Origin: Atribacteraceae bacterium
Lineage (GTDB): Bacteria > Atribacterota > Atribacteria > Atribacterales > Atribacteraceae
NCBI GenBank assembly: GCA_035477455.1
Contig: DATIKP010000069.1
Coordinates: 1 to 34,638 of the forward strand
DNA: 34,638 nt
Direction: 5' to 3'
Of the stretch, positions 23,453 to 31,786 are shown in pieces. A model generated the notes under the pieces. It worked only from the letters and a program-made list of their open reading frames with translations. It was not told the origin of the DNA and ran no database searches. Every line of letters begins with the position of its first letter. Position 1 is the first letter of the stretch. A program made the position numbers and the translations under genes.

Positions 23453-24354
23453 GGTTTCTCCCCCTCTGGTACCGGTGCCTTCCGGGCCACCCGCAAGCGG
23501 GCACTCCGGCTCCGGGGATTTTCCTTGATTTCATTGTTTCCGGTTAGAATCGGCTTTTTGGTTTCGACAACCAAACGGCTGTCCCCCCGAAAAAAAGTTT
23601 TTACCTGACGATCCTCTAATGAATGGTAGCTCAGGATAACGATCTTCCCTCCCGGCTCGAGTAAAGCAGGGACCTTTTCCAAGGCGTTCCTCAGTTCTTC
23701 CAGTTCATGATTGACGAAAATACGGATCGCCTGGAAACTCCGGGTGGCCGGATCGATTTTTCCTCGCGACCATCCCAGTGCCCGGCGGATAATTCCGGCC
23801 AATTCCCCAGTGGTTTCCACCGGCTTTTTTTCCCGGTAACGCACTATAGAACGGGCAATCCGGCGTGATTTTCTTTCCTCTCCATACCGGTATAGAATGT
23901 CTGCCAATTCTCGTTCCGGAAACGTGTTGATCACCTGACCGGCGGACAGCGTCTGACCGGGATCCATCCTCATATCCAACGGACCGTCCTCCCGGAAACT
24001 AAACCCGCGATGCGGGGTATCCAATTGCCGTGAGGATACGCCCAAATCGCATAATATTCCCGAAACTTGCGTGATTTGCAGGGAATCGAGAATCCGGTCA
24101 ATGTCGGAAAACGAACCCTGGATCAAGGTCAACCGGGAACGAAAGGGATCTAACCACCCGCGTGCCGCATCAAGAGCGTCCGGATCCCGATCGATGCCTA
24201 CCAGGCGGGCTTTCCCCGAAAGAACAAGAAAAAGCGCACGAGCATGACCACCTCCCCCCACCGTACAATCCACATAAATTCCATCCGAACGGTGTGCCAG
24301 ACAGCGGCAAACCTCACCAGTCATGACCGGCCGATGAAAGCGGTATTTATTCAT
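23449..24354 (-). CDS. rsmH: 16S rRNA m4C1402 methyltransferase RsmH
   Basis: RsmH N4-methylates C1402 of 16S rRNA in the decoding centre. The 301-residue product shows FHRPVMTGEVCRCL, SAM-binding YVDCTVGGGGHARALF, VGIDRDPDAL, and ILCDLGVSSRQLD. GFSFREDGPLDMRMDP, a family hallmark, follows, then VILSYHSLEDRQVK. Its ATG makes an ATGA overlap with mraZ. Formerly mraW, it nearly always follows mraZ at the head of the dcw cluster. Confidence 0.97.
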   Translation of the reverse strand: MNKYRFHRPVMTGEVCRCLAHRSDGIYVDCTVGGGGHARALFLVLSGKARLVGIDRDPDALDAARGWLDPFRSRLTLIQGSFSDIDRILDSLQITQVSGILCDLGVSSRQLDTPHRGFSFREDGPLDMRMDPGQTLSAGQVINTFPERELADILYRYGEERKSRRIARSIVRYREKKPVETTGELAGIIRRALGWSRGKIDPATRSFQAIRIFVNHELEELRNALEKVPALLEPGGKIVILSYHSLEDRQVKTFFRGDSRLVVETKKPILTGNNEIKENPRSRSARLRVARKAPVPEGEKP

Positions 24355-24782
24355 ATGCCGGTATCCATCAAGCCTTTACCGATTTCCTCATACCGTCCTT
24401 CCATTTCTGTGGAGTAGCGGTTCCATCCCTCTTCGGACCAGATTTCAATGCGGGTTCCCGTACCCACTACCATGGCCTTCCGCTTCAGGTTGGCACGTTC
24501 TCGGAGCGGCCGGGGAATCATGATCCGTCCCAGGGGATCGGGACTGACTGAAGCGGCGTTGGCCAAAAATATCCGGGAAAAACTCCGACCTTCCTCTCTG
24601 GTAAGGGGTAGAGAAGCTATGCTTCGATACAGGCGTTCCCACTCTTCCTGGATAAAGACAAAGATACACCCTTCCAGCCCCCGCGTGAGATAGATCGTAT
24701 CCGAGAGGTTTTTACGGAAATCATCTGGTATAATGATTCTGCCCTTGTTATCGATGGAACGCTGATGATGACCAAGAAACAT
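24351..24782 (-). CDS. mraZ: Transcriptional regulator MraZ
   Basis: MraZ is an AbrB-fold DNA-binding protein that assembles into rings and regulates its own dcw operon. From ATG 24782 the product is 143 residues, the family norm, and begins MFLGHHQRSIDNKGRIIIP. Both tandem swapped-hairpin domains show the D-x-x-G-R motif: DNKGR near residue 11 and DPLGR near residue 82. GGAG lies 7 bases upstream. The frame remains open to 24848, but that start lies upstream of the predicted promoter. A four-copy GTG repeat directly upstream looks like its operator. Confidence 0.96.
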   Translation of the reverse strand: MFLGHHQRSIDNKGRIIIPDDFRKNLSDTIYLTRGLEGCIFVFIQEEWERLYRSIASLPLTREEGRSFSRIFLANAASVSPDPLGRIMIPRPLRERANLKRKAMVVGTGTRIEIWSEEGWNRYSTEMEGRYEEIGKGLMDTGI

Positions 24783-24797
24783 GGGGACTCTCCAAAC

Positions 24798-24833
24798 ACC
24801 CACCTTTTTCCACATTCTATCACTTATTCCCAC
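24798..24833 (-). promoter_or_regulatory. MraZ operator: four GTG repeats with exact 10-base spacing
   Basis: On the minus strand GTGGGA (24833-24828), GTGATA (24823-24818), GTGGAA (24813-24808) and GTGGGT (24803-24798) recur every 10 bases. This is one DNA turn, between the putative -10 element and the mraZ ribosome-binding site and partly over them. MraZ is known to bind tandem GTGGG-type repeats with this kind of spacing upstream of mraZ. Autoregulation of the whole dcw transcript is therefore inferred. Confidence 0.8.
24814..24822 (-). promoter_or_regulatory. Extended -10 promoter for the mraZ-murG operon
   Basis: TGATAGAAT on the minus strand: TG, one base, then TAGAAT (5 of 6 to TATAAT). 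No convincing -35 box is seen 16-18 bases upstream, which is typical of extended -10 promoters. The predicted transcript start is near 24807, giving a 25-base leader. The element lies within MraZ repeats 2 and 3, so MraZ binding would occlude it. Confidence 0.55.
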
Positions 24834-24889
24834 AAATTGATAGATCAACTCCCTTTTTCGCTAGTTTTCCAGATAATTTCGTAGGTTGG

Positions 24890-25279: not shown

Positions 25280-26017
25280 TCAGGCTTGGATAAACCGGCC
25301 TTCCTGGCCGGATAATGCCAGGCGGAATTCATCCCAAGAGAGACGGTTCATTGAGAACGTGGTGGTGACACAACCGATGTCTGCCAGACAATGCGCATCG
25401 GAGGAGCGAAGCAGGGAGACACCTCTTAGAGAAAAACGGCTTCCGGCCGTGCCGGTATCCATCCGACGGGACACTTCCAGGGCGGGGACTTTCAGGTCCG
25501 GTGGAATGAAGCCCAGAACCTGAATGATGCTGTAGGAAGGCTGGTCGATATGAGCAGGGATCGGGATACCCCCAAACCGCTCAACCCGGCAAAATACTTC
25601 TTCGATACTTAAGGTGAGAGAACGGGTCAGGAGATGATCTTTTTTTTCCAGGATAGTTCCATCCTCGCCAACGACCCACTCTTCCCCCCAAATCGACTCA
25701 TCCAGGGGGAATCGGGGTAGATGCCGCTCAACCTCCCAGGAAAAACCCCGGAGCGCTGTGAGGTCCGGAAAATAACACAGGCAGTGAATTTCCTCTCCGG
25801 TTTCGACTTCCATCCCGGGCACTACCCAAACACCAAATCGCTCGCCGAGAGCGACGGTGACGGCGGTGTTGTCAGAGGTGTTATGATCGGTCACCGCAAT
25901 CATATCGATTTTCTTGGTCAGGGCCTCCAGGATAATCAGCGGGGGAAGCATTTCCCGCTCGGCACAGGGAGAAAGGACACTATGGATATGAAGATCCGCT
26001 TGAAACAACAACCTCAT
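25280..26017 (-). CDS. PHP-domain metal-dependent phosphoesterase
   Basis: PHP-fold proteins hydrolyse phosphoesters with a trinuclear metal site. The 245-residue product has the expected ligands: DLHIHS (His10, His12), AVTDHN (Asp44, His45), GMEVETGEEIHCL (Glu70, His78), IPAHID and the late SSDAH. The substrate is unknown; relatives range from nucleases to 3',5'-bisphosphate phosphatases. Its ATG overlaps the preceding DRTGG gene by 4 bases, so it belongs to the hydrogenase-like cassette. It is the last gene before the repeat-rich island. A small-molecule signalling or nucleotide-cleaving role in the cassette is conceivable but not shown. Confidence 0.85.
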   Translation of the reverse strand: MRLLFQADLHIHSVLSPCAEREMLPPLIILEALTKKIDMIAVTDHNTSDNTAVTVALGERFGVWVVPGMEVETGEEIHCLCYFPDLTALRGFSWEVERHLPRFPLDESIWGEEWVVGEDGTILEKKDHLLTRSLTLSIEEVFCRVERFGGIPIPAHIDQPSYSIIQVLGFIPPDLKVPALEVSRRMDTGTAGSRFSLRGVSLLRSSDAHCLADIGCVTTTFSMNRLSWDEFRLALSGQEGRFIQA

Positions 26018-26364
26018 CTATGCTTTCTGGCACCGGGAATACCCAGTCCCGAGAGAACGGCAACGGCTTGATAGCTGGTCATGGCTGTCCGCAAAAGGAC
26101 AACTCCCTCCTGGCGGGCTTTCGCAAGTGTCTGTTCATTGTGTTCCTGACTGTTGGCGATCACGACGGCGGCCATATCCGTCAACACCGCGACGGCAACA
26201 ATGTTCGGATGAGATTGGATCGTCACCCAAACACATCCCTCAAACGCGTTGGCGATACAATCACTGAGCAGGTCACCACAATAACCGCCGGTTATTTCCC
26301 TCTGCCGGTTGGCGTCCACCAGAATTTCCGCCTGAAGCGGTTCAATGATATCATGAACCCTCAA
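26014..26364 (-). CDS. DRTGG-domain protein (copy nearer the PHP gene)
   Basis: A 116-residue stand-alone DRTGG domain, a fold often found with CBS or phosphotransacetylase-like proteins and of unknown biochemical role. It contains REITGGYCGDLLSDCIA and alternating beta/alpha segments. It aligns end to end with the other DRTGG protein of the cassette (28149-28502), sharing a DLLSD core. That alignment supports the TTG start at 26364 (LRVHDIIEPLQ against the paralogue's LREIQMILEA), with AGGGG 11 bases upstream. The frame also reaches ATG 26388. It overlaps the hydrogenase-like gene by 14 bases. Confidence 0.75.
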   Translation of the reverse strand: MRVHDIIEPLQAEILVDANRQREITGGYCGDLLSDCIANAFEGCVWVTIQSHPNIVAVAVLTDMAAVVIANSQEHNEQTLAKARQEGVVLLRTAMTSYQAVAVLSGLGIPGARKHR

Positions 26365-27694
26365 TGGTCTTTTTTCCCCTTTCATCATTCTTCATGGTCT
26401 GTGGAATTTTGTTGGCCAGGTCAAATATTTCCCGGGACAATTCAAGCATCTTTTCCCGTAACAGAAAAGGACAGTCGATTTCCTGAGCTTTTTCCCGGAC
26501 AACGTCTTCGGCCAGGGAACGGCAGGTGGGAGAACCGCACGCTCCGCAATCCAAACCAGGGAGTCGGTCCAGGATTTTTTCGATGATTTGATACTTTTCA
26601 AGAGCTCTTTTATAGTCCTGATCCAATTTCAGGATATCTCTGGCTATAAAAGGTTTTTTCCGACGGAAGGCATCTTGTCTGGCCAGTTTATCCCATTCTT
26701 TTTCTTCAATCGCCTGAAACACGGAATATTTCCTGATCAGGCGATTGACGTTGACTTTGGCCAGGAAGGGGTTTTGAACCGCCAACACGCCACCGATGCA
26801 TCCTCCGACACAGGCCTGAGCTTCGCAGTACACAAGATTGTTGAGTTCGCCCATTTCAATCTTTTCAAAAACGGACATAACGTCATGAATGCCGTCAACG
26901 GCGACATACTCGCCCTCATCCAGTGATTCCTGTTCCCCGCCTGAACGGGCCCAGCCAATTCCTTTCCAGCTCGCTCGCTGGATACCGGAAATATCCTGCA
27001 ACTTTTCAGTCATATTGATGATCAAAGGATAAATCTTGGCCATGGAAATCGCACCGTCTATCCTTTCGAGATCTCCAACGCTTTGCCGTATTTCCGTAAC
27101 CTTGGCCGGGCAGGGGGTAATGAAAAAAACCCCGATTTCTTCGGGAGAAAATCCTTTCTCCAGCGCCCGGGACCGGGCGATACGGGCCGCAACCCCCAAG
27201 GGTGAATCAAGGGGGAGAAGATTGCCGGTTAGTGAAGGAAACTTTTCTTCTGCCAGACGAACTACCGCCGGACAGGCCGAAGAAATGAGAGGTGGCGGAA
27301 GATGGCCACTCCGCAGGATTTTTTTGATTTCTTCGGCAAGAATCTCCGCTCCGCGGGCCACTTCGTATACATCGGAAAACCCAAGTTCCAGCAGTCCGTA
27401 CAGAAGTTTTCCCAGGGTAAACCCGGTGGAAAATTGCGCGTAAAAAGCGGGAGCGGGAAGAGCGATGGAATAACGATAATGCCCGATCGCTTCGAGGGGA
27501 TCAGACTGGGCGTATTTCGCGTGGTTGGGACAGGTCCTGATACATTCTCCGCAATCGATGCACCGCTCTTCGTCTATCCTGGCTTTGCCTCCTTTGACCC
27601 GGATGGCCTCGGTCGGACACCGCCGGATACAATGGGTACATCCCTTGCATTTTTCCTCATCGAGGAGAACCGAATGACATAGCTTCTCCTTCAA
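26351..27694 (-). CDS. [FeFe]-hydrogenase-like protein of sensory type
   Basis: The 447-residue product starts with two 4Fe-4S ferredoxin motifs (Cys16-19-22-26 and 45-48-51-55). The [FeFe]-hydrogenase large-subunit core follows. Motif L1 reads SSACP (138-142), L2 TPCPAK (193-198) and L3 EAQACVGGC (291-299). All four predicted H-cluster cysteines (141, 195, 295, 299) and Lys198 are kept. The proton-relay cysteine of catalytic enzymes (first Cys of TSCCP) is Ala140 and the usual Met of L3 is Gln293. A C-terminal 4Fe-4S domain follows (C383-x2-C386-x4-C391-x16-C408). These traits fit sensory HydS-like proteins. The TTG start overlaps the HATPase stop (TTGA). Confidence 0.88.
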   Translation of the reverse strand: MKEKLCHSVLLDEEKCKGCTHCIRRCPTEAIRVKGGKARIDEERCIDCGECIRTCPNHAKYAQSDPLEAIGHYRYSIALPAPAFYAQFSTGFTLGKLLYGLLELGFSDVYEVARGAEILAEEIKKILRSGHLPPPLISSACPAVVRLAEEKFPSLTGNLLPLDSPLGVAARIARSRALEKGFSPEEIGVFFITPCPAKVTEIRQSVGDLERIDGAISMAKIYPLIINMTEKLQDISGIQRASWKGIGWARSGGEQESLDEGEYVAVDGIHDVMSVFEKIEMGELNNLVYCEAQACVGGCIGGVLAVQNPFLAKVNVNRLIRKYSVFQAIEEKEWDKLARQDAFRRKKPFIARDILKLDQDYKRALEKYQIIEKILDRLPGLDCGACGSPTCRSLAEDVVREKAQEIDCPFLLREKMLELSREIFDLANKIPQTMKNDERGKKTIEGS

Positions 27695-28152
27695 ACTCCA
27701 CCACCATTTTTCACGGAGTTCAGGAAAAAATCCATCATGACCCGGGTCCCTTCCCCAACCCTGGAATCGATTTCTATCCGATCGGAACATTTCCTCATGT
27801 TCGCCAATCCGTAACCCGCTCCAAAACCCATTTCCCGAATATGAGGGGGGGCGGTCGAATATCCCTCCTGAAATGCCAGGTCGAGATCTGGAATACCCGG
27901 GCCTTCATCATCAATGACGATGTGAACCTTCTCGGGGGTGATAACCGTCCTGAAGCTTCCTTTGTAGGCATGAATCACAACGTTCATTTCCGCCTCATAG
28001 GCGGCGATCACGATACGGCGGATAAACGGGGGTGGAAATCCGGCTTGGAGCAGAAGTTTTTTCAACTCCCCGGATATATCGCCCGCGCTCTGAAAATCCG
28101 CTCCGACTATCTCCCGGGAGGCCTCAAACAAGGGTTTAGGCTCAATGATCAC
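27691..28152 (-). CDS. RsbW/SpoIIAB-like serine kinase-type HATPase
   Basis: A 153-residue GHKL ATPase of the anti-sigma-factor serine kinase class. The N-box is AAYEAEMNVVIHAY (Glu53, Asn57), the G1 box DDEGPGIPD (81-89) and the G2 box MGFGAGYGLANMRK (108-121). There is no histidine-phosphotransfer domain and no sensor domain, so it probably acts on a protein partner. No sigma factor or anti-anti-sigma gene is in the window. It overlaps the hydrogenase-like gene by 4 bases, which suggests the redox protein is its partner. The start GTG 28152 overlaps the DRTGG stop. Confidence 0.88.
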   Translation of the reverse strand: MIIEPKPLFEASREIVGADFQSAGDISGELKKLLLQAGFPPPFIRRIVIAAYEAEMNVVIHAYKGSFRTVITPEKVHIVIDDEGPGIPDLDLAFQEGYSTAPPHIREMGFGAGYGLANMRKCSDRIEIDSRVGEGTRVMMDFFLNSVKNGGGV

Positions 28153-28502
28153 TTGATTTCACTGCAACCCCTGATCCCGTGCCGATAGAGCCTACCACAG
28201 GCTTCATACATGGGAAGACGGGTCGTCAGTATTGGAATCTTTTTGATGCCGGCCAATTCCACCGTGGCCGTTTCCGGCTTCTTCCCACGGACAAAAACGA
28301 TCCCGATAAGATCGCTCATTTCTGCGGTCCTGATGACCTGAGGATTCGTCAGGCCCGTCAACAGCAGGGATTTCTCTTTGGTAAACGCGAGAACATCACT
28401 GAGTAAATCGCTCCCGCACACCGAGGATGGTTCCCGGTCGAGCCACTGGTCACCGACCAGAACATCGGCTTCCAAAATCATCTGAATCTCCCTTAAGTTC
28501 AT
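28149..28502 (-). CDS. DRTGG-domain protein (copy at the head of the cassette)
   Basis: A 117-residue single-domain protein related to the copy at 26014-26364: both begin with an LR.......L.A. segment, share a GxDLLSD core and have the same length. Here the TGG of the domain's name is replaced (REPSSVCGSDLLSDVLA), so the sites may differ in ligand. ATG 28502 has a G-rich site just upstream. A 9-base gap follows the SPOR gene. The function is unknown. Paired DRTGG proteins around an Fe-S protein suggest a complex, but that is inference. Confidence 0.75.
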   Translation of the reverse strand: MNLREIQMILEADVLVGDQWLDREPSSVCGSDLLSDVLAFTKEKSLLLTGLTNPQVIRTAEMSDLIGIVFVRGKKPETATVELAGIKKIPILTTRLPMYEACGRLYRHGIRGCSEIK

Positions 28503-28511
28503 GGACCCCCC

Positions 28512-29135
28512 CTACTGTCCGGCGAATGACTCGATGCCCTGGTTTCTCAATTGCTGGACAATCCGTCTCGCTTCCTCCAACGAAGGCAGGCCGGGGATCT
28601 GGACCTTGAACACTGCTGCGTCTTGACGAAGAACTGGTTGAAAACCGAGTTGGCGCAGGGATTCAAGCATGCGATCGGCATTCTCCCGCCGAGAGAAAGC
28701 ACCGGCCTGGACAAAGAACGCTCCCGATGGCGCTTGGATTACTGGAGCGGGTGTTGGAGAAGCAGCGGCTACTGGGACAGGAGGGGTGGAAACCGTTACC
28801 GGAGTGGGGACCGGGGCTGCCGGTACGCCGGTCGCGGCTGGGGCAATAATTTGCTCAACGGGTCCAACGGCGGGAGCAACCTCCCCTTCCTGGAAGCCGG
28901 GCACCGTTGTCGGATCAGCGGGTCGCGCCAGTCGCTCCAATTCGGTCAGAAGATCAGCGGCTCTCCGTTCTCCGGGAACATCTTCAATCTGCAAGGATGT
29001 ACCGAGTAAAAACCCGGTATACGCATCAAGGTCACCGCGGGCGATAAAAAAAGCCACCATGATGACCAGAAAACATCCCATCAGAAACACGACGTGTTCG
29101 ACTGGGTCCTTCTGTCTGAGAAAAGGATTGTTCAT
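28512..29135 (-). CDS. Membrane-anchored SPOR-domain protein
   Basis: SPOR domains bind glycan strands stripped of stem peptides, which concentrates such proteins at the septum. The 207-residue product has a short N-terminal tail, one transmembrane segment (about 17-34), and a Pro/Ala/Val/Thr-rich linker (about 80-145). The C-terminal SPOR domain begins AFFVQAGAFSRRENADRML, continues through VFKVQIPGLPSLEEARRIV and ends IESFAGQ. The design is like FtsN/DamX, but no other FtsN feature is visible. Its ATG overlaps the valS stop by 4 bases. It lies upstream of the division cluster and may be the division-linked member of this operon. Confidence 0.85.
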   Translation of the reverse strand: MNNPFLRQKDPVEHVVFLMGCFLVIMVAFFIARGDLDAYTGFLLGTSLQIEDVPGERRAADLLTELERLARPADPTTVPGFQEGEVAPAVGPVEQIIAPAATGVPAAPVPTPVTVSTPPVPVAAASPTPAPVIQAPSGAFFVQAGAFSRRENADRMLESLRQLGFQPVLRQDAAVFKVQIPGLPSLEEARRIVQQLRNQGIESFAGQ

Positions 29136-31786
29136 AACGACCTGATGTCCTCGATAAGCTTTCTGATCCGGATCCGCTCACCGTTCAAGGTTTCCCAGCG
29201 CTTTCTCTCTCGTTCGACTATCTCATCCGGAGCCCGGTTCAGAAAATCCTGGTTGTCGAGTCTGGATCGCAGGCCTTCAAGGTCTCTTTCGTGAATCAAG
29301 CATTTTTTTTCCAACCGCCGCACTTCCTCATCCACCTCGATCAAGTCACCGATTTCCAAAAAAATGTCCGCTCCCGGCACCCGGCCGGTGGCCATCCCGG
29401 CTTTGTCAATCGCCTGATCCTGTTTCAGTATCTCACATTTCGCCAGAAGTGCAAGATAGGGGAAAAAGGTATCGGATAACGCTCTCAGGCCGAAATCGGA
29501 AAAATGGATATGAACCCGGCAGGTTTCCGCCGGAGATATCGAAAGCTCAGCCCGCAGAAAGCGGATTTCCCGGATCATATCCTGGACACGGGTCATCACC
29601 TCCTCAATTTCATCCGCGCACCATCGAGGGTCCGGTTCCGGCCATGAAACAACAATGAGCTTATCCTGGTTCTCTCCGACCATCTGTTGCCAGATTTCCT
29701 CGGTTATAAAAGGGGCTACCGGATGGAGTAAACGAAGGACCCTCTCCAGGACATGAACCAGGACATTCTGAGTCCGTTCCTTTTCCCGGTCCTTCCCCCG
29801 GTAAAGATCCTGTTTGGCCAGTTCGATGAACCAGTCACAATAATCTCCCCAGACAAAATCATAAACGATTTGAACATATTCACCAAAAGCATAGCTCTCG
29901 AGCGCATCCGTAGCCAAGCCGATGGTCCTTTCGAACCGGGACAGTATCCAGCGGTCTTTCAGTTCAAGTTCTTCCTGAAACATTTCCAGGGGAGTACGGT
30001 GTAATCCGTTTGTGTTCATCAGCACAAAACGTGAGGCATTCCAGAGCTTGTTCATAAAATTCCGGGCCGATTCAATCCGGGCAACCGACAAATTGATATC
30101 CCGGCCCTGGACGGTCAGCCAGGCCAGAGCAAAGCGAAGGGAATCCGCTCCAAACTGCTCGATTACATCCAGGGGATCGAGGGCGTTTCCCAGTGATTTA
30201 CTCATTTTTTTTCCTTTTTCATCCCGTACCAGGGGGGTTATAAAGACATCATAAAAGGGAATGTCTTCTTTAAAGCGAAGACCCATCATGATCATTCTCG
30301 CGACCCAGAAAAAGATGATATCAAACCCGGTCACCAGAACACTGGTGGGATAAAAAGTTCTGAGATCGCCGGTGTCATCCGGCCAGCCAAGGGTGGAAAA
30401 CGGCCAGAGGGCGGAACTGAACCAGGTGTCTAAAACATCTTCATCCTGTCGGAGGGAGCCTGAACAACGGGGGCATACCAAAGGTTCGTCTACGGCGGCG
30501 AAACAATATTCACATGCATCACAATAAAAAACCGGTATCCGGTGACCCCACCAGATCTGGCGGGAAATACACCAGTCCCTGATCTTATTCATCCATTCAA
30601 AATAGACCCGTGACCAGCGTTCGGGGATAAACCGGATACGGTCCTCCTCAACCGCGTGGATAGCCGGTTCTGCCAGTTCTTTCATCCGCACGAACCATTG
30701 CTTGGACACATAAGGTTCTATAGCGGTGGTACAGCGATAACAATATCCCACCGAATGGTTATAATCTTCGCACCGTTCCAAGAGACCCTGTTTTCCGAGC
30801 GCGTCAACCACCTGTTTCCGGCAGGTATATCGATCGAGTCCAGCATATCCTCCGGCCTCTTCACTCATCATCCCTTCTCCGTTGATGACCCGGATAACGG
30901 GAAGTCGGTGTTTTCGGCCCAGTTCGAAATCGGACATATCGTGGGCCGGGGTCACTTTCAACACCCCCGTTCCGAATCCCGGTTCAACATAATCATCGGT
31001 TATGAGCGGGAGTTCCCGTCCCACGAGGGGAAGCAACACCCTTGAACCATGGTGCAGGCGATACCGTTCATCATCGGGATGGACCGCCAGGGCAACATCG
31101 CCGAGCATAGTCTCCGGGCGGGTGGTGGCTACGACCAGGTATTCACCCGGCCGTTTCGTCAAAGGATAGCGGATGAAGTAGAGCTGTCCTTCGACTTCCC
31201 GGTAATCGACCTCGATATCGGCCAAAGCGGTTGTGCAGCGGGGACACCAGTTCACGATATACTCATCACGGTAAATCAACCCGTCCTCGAAAAGACGGAC
31301 AAAAACTTCCCGAACCGCCCGGGATAAGCCTTCGTCCATAGTAAAGCGCTCGCGGCTCCAATCGCACGAGGCACCCATCCGTTTCAACTGAGTCACTATC
31401 CGTCCATGGTAACGGTCTTTCCATTGCCAAACCCGCCCGATAAACCGGTCCCGTCCCAAGTCATGGCGGCTGAGACCTTCACCGGCCAACATCCGTTCCA
31501 CGACATTTTGAGTGGCAATCCCCGCGTGATCGGTACCCGGTAGCCAAAGGGTTCGATATCCCTGCATCCGTTTCAGACGAATCAGGACATCCTGCAGTGT
31601 AAGGTTAAGGGCATGACCCATGTGGAGATGGCCCGTAACATTCGGAGGAGGAATAACAATACAAAACGGGTCGTTTCCCGGACTCCTATCCGGGTGGAAA
31701 TATCTCCCTTCCTCCCAGATACGGTACCATTTTTCTTCTATGGTTTGCGGCTCGAAAACTTGGGGCAATGTTTCTTCATTTTTCAC
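29132..31786 (-). CDS. valS: Valyl-tRNA synthetase
   Basis: This class I aminoacyl-tRNA synthetase charges tRNA-Val and edits threonine. The 884-residue enzyme has the HIGH-type motif PPPNVTGHLHMGHAL (about 46-60) and the editing domain with ATTRPETMLGDVA. An inserted zinc-type CDACEYC...CPRC knuckle follows, then KMSKSLGNALDP. The anticodon-binding domain and a C-terminal coiled-coil arm come last. The GTG start at 31786 has AAGGA 8 bases upstream, 15 bases after the clpX stop. Length and motif order are normal. Confidence 0.98.
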   Translation of the reverse strand: MKNEETLPQVFEPQTIEEKWYRIWEEGRYFHPDRSPGNDPFCIVIPPPNVTGHLHMGHALNLTLQDVLIRLKRMQGYRTLWLPGTDHAGIATQNVVERMLAGEGLSRHDLGRDRFIGRVWQWKDRYHGRIVTQLKRMGASCDWSRERFTMDEGLSRAVREVFVRLFEDGLIYRDEYIVNWCPRCTTALADIEVDYREVEGQLYFIRYPLTKRPGEYLVVATTRPETMLGDVALAVHPDDERYRLHHGSRVLLPLVGRELPLITDDYVEPGFGTGVLKVTPAHDMSDFELGRKHRLPVIRVINGEGMMSEEAGGYAGLDRYTCRKQVVDALGKQGLLERCEDYNHSVGYCYRCTTAIEPYVSKQWFVRMKELAEPAIHAVEEDRIRFIPERWSRVYFEWMNKIRDWCISRQIWWGHRIPVFYCDACEYCFAAVDEPLVCPRCSGSLRQDEDVLDTWFSSALWPFSTLGWPDDTGDLRTFYPTSVLVTGFDIIFFWVARMIMMGLRFKEDIPFYDVFITPLVRDEKGKKMSKSLGNALDPLDVIEQFGADSLRFALAWLTVQGRDINLSVARIESARNFMNKLWNASRFVLMNTNGLHRTPLEMFQEELELKDRWILSRFERTIGLATDALESYAFGEYVQIVYDFVWGDYCDWFIELAKQDLYRGKDREKERTQNVLVHVLERVLRLLHPVAPFITEEIWQQMVGENQDKLIVVSWPEPDPRWCADEIEEVMTRVQDMIREIRFLRAELSISPAETCRVHIHFSDFGLRALSDTFFPYLALLAKCEILKQDQAIDKAGMATGRVPGADIFLEIGDLIEVDEEVRRLEKKCLIHERDLEGLRSRLDNQDFLNRAPDEIVERERKRWETLNGERIRIRKLIEDIRSL

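Follow-up and report, generated by a model that had tools for sequence, protein, structure and literature searches.

A group D [FeFe]-hydrogenase of Atribacterota in a conserved five-gene module between valS and mraZ

Group D [FeFe]-hydrogenases sit in a conserved five-gene module, DRTGG1–HATPase–HydS–DRTGG2–PHP, and natural gene fusions link its parts. Atribacterota carry this module uncoupled from the HydABC hydrogenase operon and fixed between valS and mraZ. Both observations are new here and come from a window of 34,638 nt (contig DATIKP010000069.1, assembly GCA_035477455.1, Atribacteraceae bacterium, Atribacterota), its relatives and sampled Bacillota genomes (Table 1). We consider it probable, at roughly 60%, that the window protein is a sensory-type HydS of group D that would signal H2 or redox state through a conformational change to the HATPase, with the DRTGG and PHP proteins as partners.

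Table 1 Features of the window and the basis of their assignment.
Feature	Position	Strand	Basis or remark
mraZ, first division/cell-wall cluster gene, conserved downstream flank	24351..24782	(-)	After ~500-nt gap
PHP metallo-phosphoesterase	25280..26017	(-)	Metal-binding residues all kept
DRTGG-domain protein 2	26014..26388	(-)	Just under Pfam cut-off
Group D [FeFe]-hydrogenase (HydS, M2e), 447 aa	26351..27694	(-)	Domain matches, tree
C-terminal [4Fe-4S] motif CX2CX4CX16C (383-408)	26471..26548	(-)	Groups C and D type; PMC8163306
L3 motif CEAQACVGGC (290-299)	26798..26827	(-)	Glu291 (TamHydS E289), Gln293 (CpI Met497), Cys295, Cys299
Asp267, outer end of group D proton path (TamHydS D265)	26894..26896	(-)	
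Ser251 to Glu254, group D proton path (TamHydS S249, E252)	26933..26944	(-)	PMC10407848
L2 motif TPCPAK (193-198)	27101..27118	(-)	Thr193 for CpI Met353; Cys195; Lys198
L1 motif SSACP (138-142)	27269..27283	(-)	Ala140 for CpI Cys299; Cys141, H-cluster ligand
N-terminal two [4Fe-4S] ferredoxin module (Cys16-55)	27530..27649	(-)	All Cys invariant, 126 homologues
SpoIIAB/RsbW-like GHKL ATPase, proposed output kinase	27691..28152	(-)	Profile match, ATP-site motifs
DRTGG-domain protein 1	28149..28502	(-)	Domain match
SPOR-domain protein, conserved upstream flank	28512..29135	(-)	Domain match, synteny
valS, conserved upstream flank	29132..31786	(-)	Overlaps SPOR by 4 nt

Class and active-site pocket of the window protein

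The HydS reading frame opens with a TTG at the end of the preceding HATPase gene, with whose stop it shares 4 nt; an ATG at 27790 would extend the protein to 479 aa, and the choice between the two starts is uncertain. Pfam matches to Fe_hyd_lg_C (E=4e-32), FeS (E=6e-13) and a dicluster ferredoxin, together with cysteines at 16/19/22/26, 45/48/51/55, 141, 195, 290, 295, 299 and 383/386/391/408, define a layout of two N-terminal 4Fe-4S clusters, an H-domain and a CX2CX4CX16C tail, with no PAS domain. The initial annotation had pointed to the retained H-cluster cysteines (141, 195, 295 and 299) and L2 Lys198, to Ala140 in place of the proton-relay cysteine in an SSACP L1 motif, and to Gln293 in place of the L3 methionine. 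All of these are seen in the translated frame, which holds one further pocket change absent from that account, Thr193 where CpI has Met353.

The same annotation read the protein as sensory and took the lack of a fused PAS or kinase domain as an anomaly. The sensory reading stands, the protein falling in group D, the class of TamHydS; the anomaly does not, because this architecture is already described for group D (M2e), with a C-terminal 4Fe-4S domain, a relay alanine, Met353 replaced by Ser or Thr, and an adjacent HATPase (PMC8163306, PMC3561251). A protein free of PAS, with its HATPase encoded separately, is thus standard for the group.

A maximum-likelihood tree of 60 proteins (IQ-TREE) resolved the four groups, with support of 100/100 for A, 100/97 for B, 100/99 for C and 100/100 for D. 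Window HydS falls within clade D (100/100), apart from B and C and outside catalytic group A; the tree contains no named T. mathranii row, and the label D derives from two independent lines, a residue fingerprint and published gene spacing. As to the fingerprint, the relay cysteine is absent, a threonine occupies the Met353 position, and the alternative proton path of group D is in place: TamHydS residues A137, S191, E252, E289, S249 and D265 (PMC10407848, PMC11803613) map to A140, T193, E254, E291, S251 and D267, shifted by two or three positions. Among 126 homologues, E254, E291 and Lys198 are each kept in all 126 and D267 in 122; position 193 is always Ser or Thr, and position 140 carries Ala or Ser and in no case Cys. 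As to the spacing, the locus tags of the group D M2e genes listed by Carere et al. precede HydABC by five to seven genes (PMC3561251), which equals the order found here, HydS–DRTGG–PHP–NuoE–HATPase2–Fd–NuoF–HydA. From these sequence features, assignment of the window protein to group D (M2e) is nearly certain. It shows neither the traits of group A (relay Cys, pocket Met, group A clade) nor those of group C (a PAS domain following the C-terminal FeS domain, a place in the group C clade). A site upstream of a HydABC operon, typical of group D without defining it, is not seen in the window. Of the 398 genomes sampled from the Bacillota phylum around Thermosediminibacter, 160 have group D proteins; the class is therefore common and already described.

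We compared the window protein with TamHydS of Thermoanaerobacter mathranii by the published residues and description (PMC8163306, PMC10407848, PMC11803613, PMC13104023). The two share the layout, the CX2CX4CX16C tail, the lack of PAS, a neighbouring HATPase, Ala at C299, a hydroxyl residue at M353 and the E-E-S-D proton path. They differ at M497 (Gln in the window, Leu in TamHydS) and in setting, the TamHydS module lying upstream of HydABC and that of the window between valS and mraZ in an Atribacterota host. The Caldicellulosiruptor M2e genes, Cthe_0335, Cphy_3798 and TTE0887 (PMC3561251) are of the same class, and their distance to HydABC matches the gene order found; unlike the window gene, they lie upstream of bifurcating hydrogenase operons. 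Because the Glu-Glu-Ser-Asp relay of group D is intact (PMC10407848), proton transfer is probably not lost despite Ala140.

Derivation from a group C HydS by loss of its PAS domain is very improbable. Group C proteins (TmHydS of Thermotoga maritima, HfsB of Thermoanaerobacterium) are putative sensors that share the C-terminal FeS domain and the relay Ala, but unlike window HydS they carry PAS, form a clade of their own and are associated with SpoIIE-type phosphatase or kinase genes. The tree rejects such an origin, with C and D as distinct clades at 100% bootstrap each, and the genome itself has genuine group C paralogues with PAS: its six H-domain genes comprise three of group A, two of group C HydS type and window HydS. 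One of these paralogues lies in a single row with Rex, NuoE, NuoF, HydA and a SpoIIE-type-phosphatase-like protein (L043, G000:C38), a second sensor system, of group C, in this genome.

A search of 60 relatives found 24 close HydS orthologues at 67-75% identity, in every genome examined in the order and in none from the rest of the phylum. There is one copy per genome, and two contigs carry it in one genome; named relatives with the orthologue are Atribacterota, for example Candidatus Caldatribacterium. The pocket motifs are invariant across the 24 orthologues and are therefore neither chance nor decay. Loss of the catalytic cysteine and methionines might also mark a degenerate, functionless remnant, but the 189 positions invariant overall (24-25 sequences), the fixed operon, the high-confidence fold and the intact frames in relatives leave that reading a negligible probability.

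The five-gene module and its setting

The HATPase is nearest to SpoIIAB yet scores below the cut-off of that family. Its N-, G1- and G2-box residues are ~100% conserved, and across the module the ATP-site and PHP residues are ~97-100% conserved. It shares ATP-site motifs with the SpoIIAB/RsbW anti-sigma kinases (PDB 1til, 1l0o), whose systems have a STAS partner; in contrast, no STAS-domain protein was matched in the window genome (96% completeness), in a search where 10 of 14 controls matched. On the outcome of this search, at that completeness, RsbW/SpoIIAB-type partner switching through a STAS protein was rejected. Structural comparison of the PHP model (pLDDT 97) ranks the Endonuclease Q PHP domain first (Z 25.5, rmsd 2.2-2.3 over 218 residues) and PHP phosphoesterases, RNase AM for instance, next. 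An Asp-x-x-Ser motif is invariant in each of the two DRTGG families.

Of 60 wide loci outside Atribacterota, 57 show the full order DRTGG–HATPase–HydS–DRTGG–PHP; HydABC follows downstream in 51 of the 60, the other nine having no HydABC nearby. In-frame fusions join DRTGG1 to the HATPase at five loci (267-270 aa, for example L098:7147-7956), the HATPase to HydS on one contig only (L219:3498-5300), and HydS to DRTGG2 in two genomes (L220:3613-5322 and L221:3674-5362). The module and these fusions suggest one signalling complex with the SpoIIAB/RsbW-like ATPase as its output. The open literature searched on DRTGG and hydrogenase gave no account of the module. At two loci (L081:9305-10606 and L090:9304-9645), unrelated genes lie between HydS and DRTGG2, and the module still persists.

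HydS could instead act as a slow catalytic hydrogenase, an electron valve in exchange with ferredoxin, its neighbours being unrelated or mere regulators. TamHydS catalyses reversible H2 conversion slowly (PMC8163306), and the N-terminal ferredoxin clusters would permit such exchange. The tight linkage to ATPase, DRTGG and PHP genes, fusions included, a pocket tuned away from fast catalysis and the lack of a linked electron-carrier subunit in Atribacterota argue against a valve, which we regard as rather unlikely.

In Atribacterota, every contig long enough to show gene order reads valS–SPOR–DRTGG–HATPase–HydS–DRTGG–PHP–mraZ–rsmH; the exception, L076, starts inside the module and has no DRTGG2 match. 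Because the window genes from valS through PHP overlap or lie 9 nt apart, against ~500 nt between PHP and mraZ, the module probably shares a transcript with valS and SPOR and not with the division cluster. Scans of promoters and terminators gave no more matches than in shuffles. Just upstream of the mraZ start, repeats of TGGGA, TGGAA, TGGGT and TGGAG (24783-24840, (-)) resemble MraZ operators. In an uncultured Ruminococcus MAG (L088:3212-8428), the module lies directly upstream of mraZ–rsmH, with no HydABC nearby.

H-cluster capacity and a signalling model

The initial annotation had proposed a search for maturases and a structure prediction of the pocket. All three maturases, HydE, HydF and HydG, are grouped on contig C57 of the genome and score above their family cut-offs, and the AlphaFold2 model of window HydS (pLDDT 92, pTM 0.87) places the pocket, with high confidence, on the CpI fold (4xdc; Z 36.7, rmsd 3.0 over 347 residues). 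With the tree placement outside group A, all three conditions that the initial annotation had set against its own reading fail. By its gene content, the host genome is predicted to be able to make an H-cluster. Window HydS, with the ligands kept and the maturases in its genome, is a putative H-cluster binder.

How group D proteins signal is a question raised by their lack of PAS and kinase domains, and the module with its fusions names concrete partners. We observe sequence, predicted fold, conservation, fusions and synteny, and infer H2 or redox sensing through the HATPase, phosphorylation and the client genes. H2 or the cell redox state would set the state of the H-cluster, and the signal would consist of slow turnover and a conformational change, as opposed to bulk catalysis. 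This change would control the SpoIIAB/RsbW-like ATPase bound to HydS, which would phosphorylate a target, possibly a DRTGG protein at the invariant serine. The DRTGG proteins may be ligand-binding or phospho-acceptor parts, while the PHP phosphoesterase may return the signal to its resting state or cleave a nucleotide messenger. The usual client in Firmicutes would be the adjacent HydABC operon, which the module lacks as a neighbour in Atribacterota.

In favour of this model, H2-dependent changes in secondary structure have been reported for TamHydS; the redox state of its C-terminal cluster is unchanged with H2 (PMC13104023). That insensitivity speaks against the model, as do the genome without STAS, a clade without detected maturases (below) and the restriction of the HATPase–HydS fusion to one contig. 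Window HydS belongs to a known class at an unusual site conserved throughout its order, and the evidence from the module makes group D signalling testable.

Genomes without detected maturases

Among the 160 Bacillota genomes that carry group D, 46 gave no detectable HydG, and HydF was also undetected in 44 of these 46; all candidates were scored, except in G302, where 31 of 44 HydF candidates were. Many of these absences may be assembly gaps, since most such genomes still carry HydA; genome completeness is not given. Group D is the sole H-domain protein in eight of the 46. Five of the eight form one Firmicute clade (loci L266, L269, L270, L271 and L273; genomes G097, G242, G291, G362 and G445) with K198Q and E254Q and all 16 cysteines intact, a single evolutionary event. 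The clade, likewise a new observation, keeps the module and the second HATPase, with no HydABC.

Among 112 proteins from genomes with maturases, 111 retain Lys198 and 111 retain Glu254, which suggests that these residues mark H-cluster use; their presence would therefore support an H-cluster in window HydS. The module appears able to outlive the H-cluster, and because one clade keeps it without detectable maturases, H2 sensing may not be essential to it everywhere. This clade, lacking the 2Fe-contacting residues and detected maturases, offers a natural comparison for the contribution of the H-cluster.

The clade also bears on whether HydS might be a redox or oxygen sensor with [4Fe-4S] clusters only, never carrying the 2Fe subsite in vivo. 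Its substitutions, its 16 cysteines and the lack of a detected HydG, HydF or further hydrogenase in its genomes favour this possibility. For the window protein it is unlikely: Lys198, Glu254 and the full path are kept, invariant in its order, and HydE, HydF and HydG are in its genome. A more novel reading, which we propose only tentatively, makes group D HydS the input of a distinct DRTGG1–HATPase–HydS–DRTGG2 and PHP complex, physically linked as the fusions suggest and not tied to hydrogenase operons, which would serve some client in Atribacterota and act as a [4Fe-4S]-only sensor in the one Firmicute clade after loss of the H-cluster machinery.

Two apparently near-complete genomes, G302 (one 3.7-Mb contig; L214, L252) and G121 (one 3.17-Mb contig; L281), have several [FeFe]-hydrogenase-like genes and no detected HydG or HydF. 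The group D pocket of G121 is altered, with His140, Met194, Arg198, Asp254 and Ser267. A link between the TSCSP variant of HydA and missing maturases was considered and dropped, as no association was found: maturase-bearing genomes, the present one among them, have the variant too. Among HydA matches with all three motifs found, L1 reads TSCSPG in 37 of 44 (repeat loci included), placing Ser at the position of the CpI cluster ligand Cys300, as in L045:4011-5780 and other HydA genes; the C161 HydA of this genome is included.
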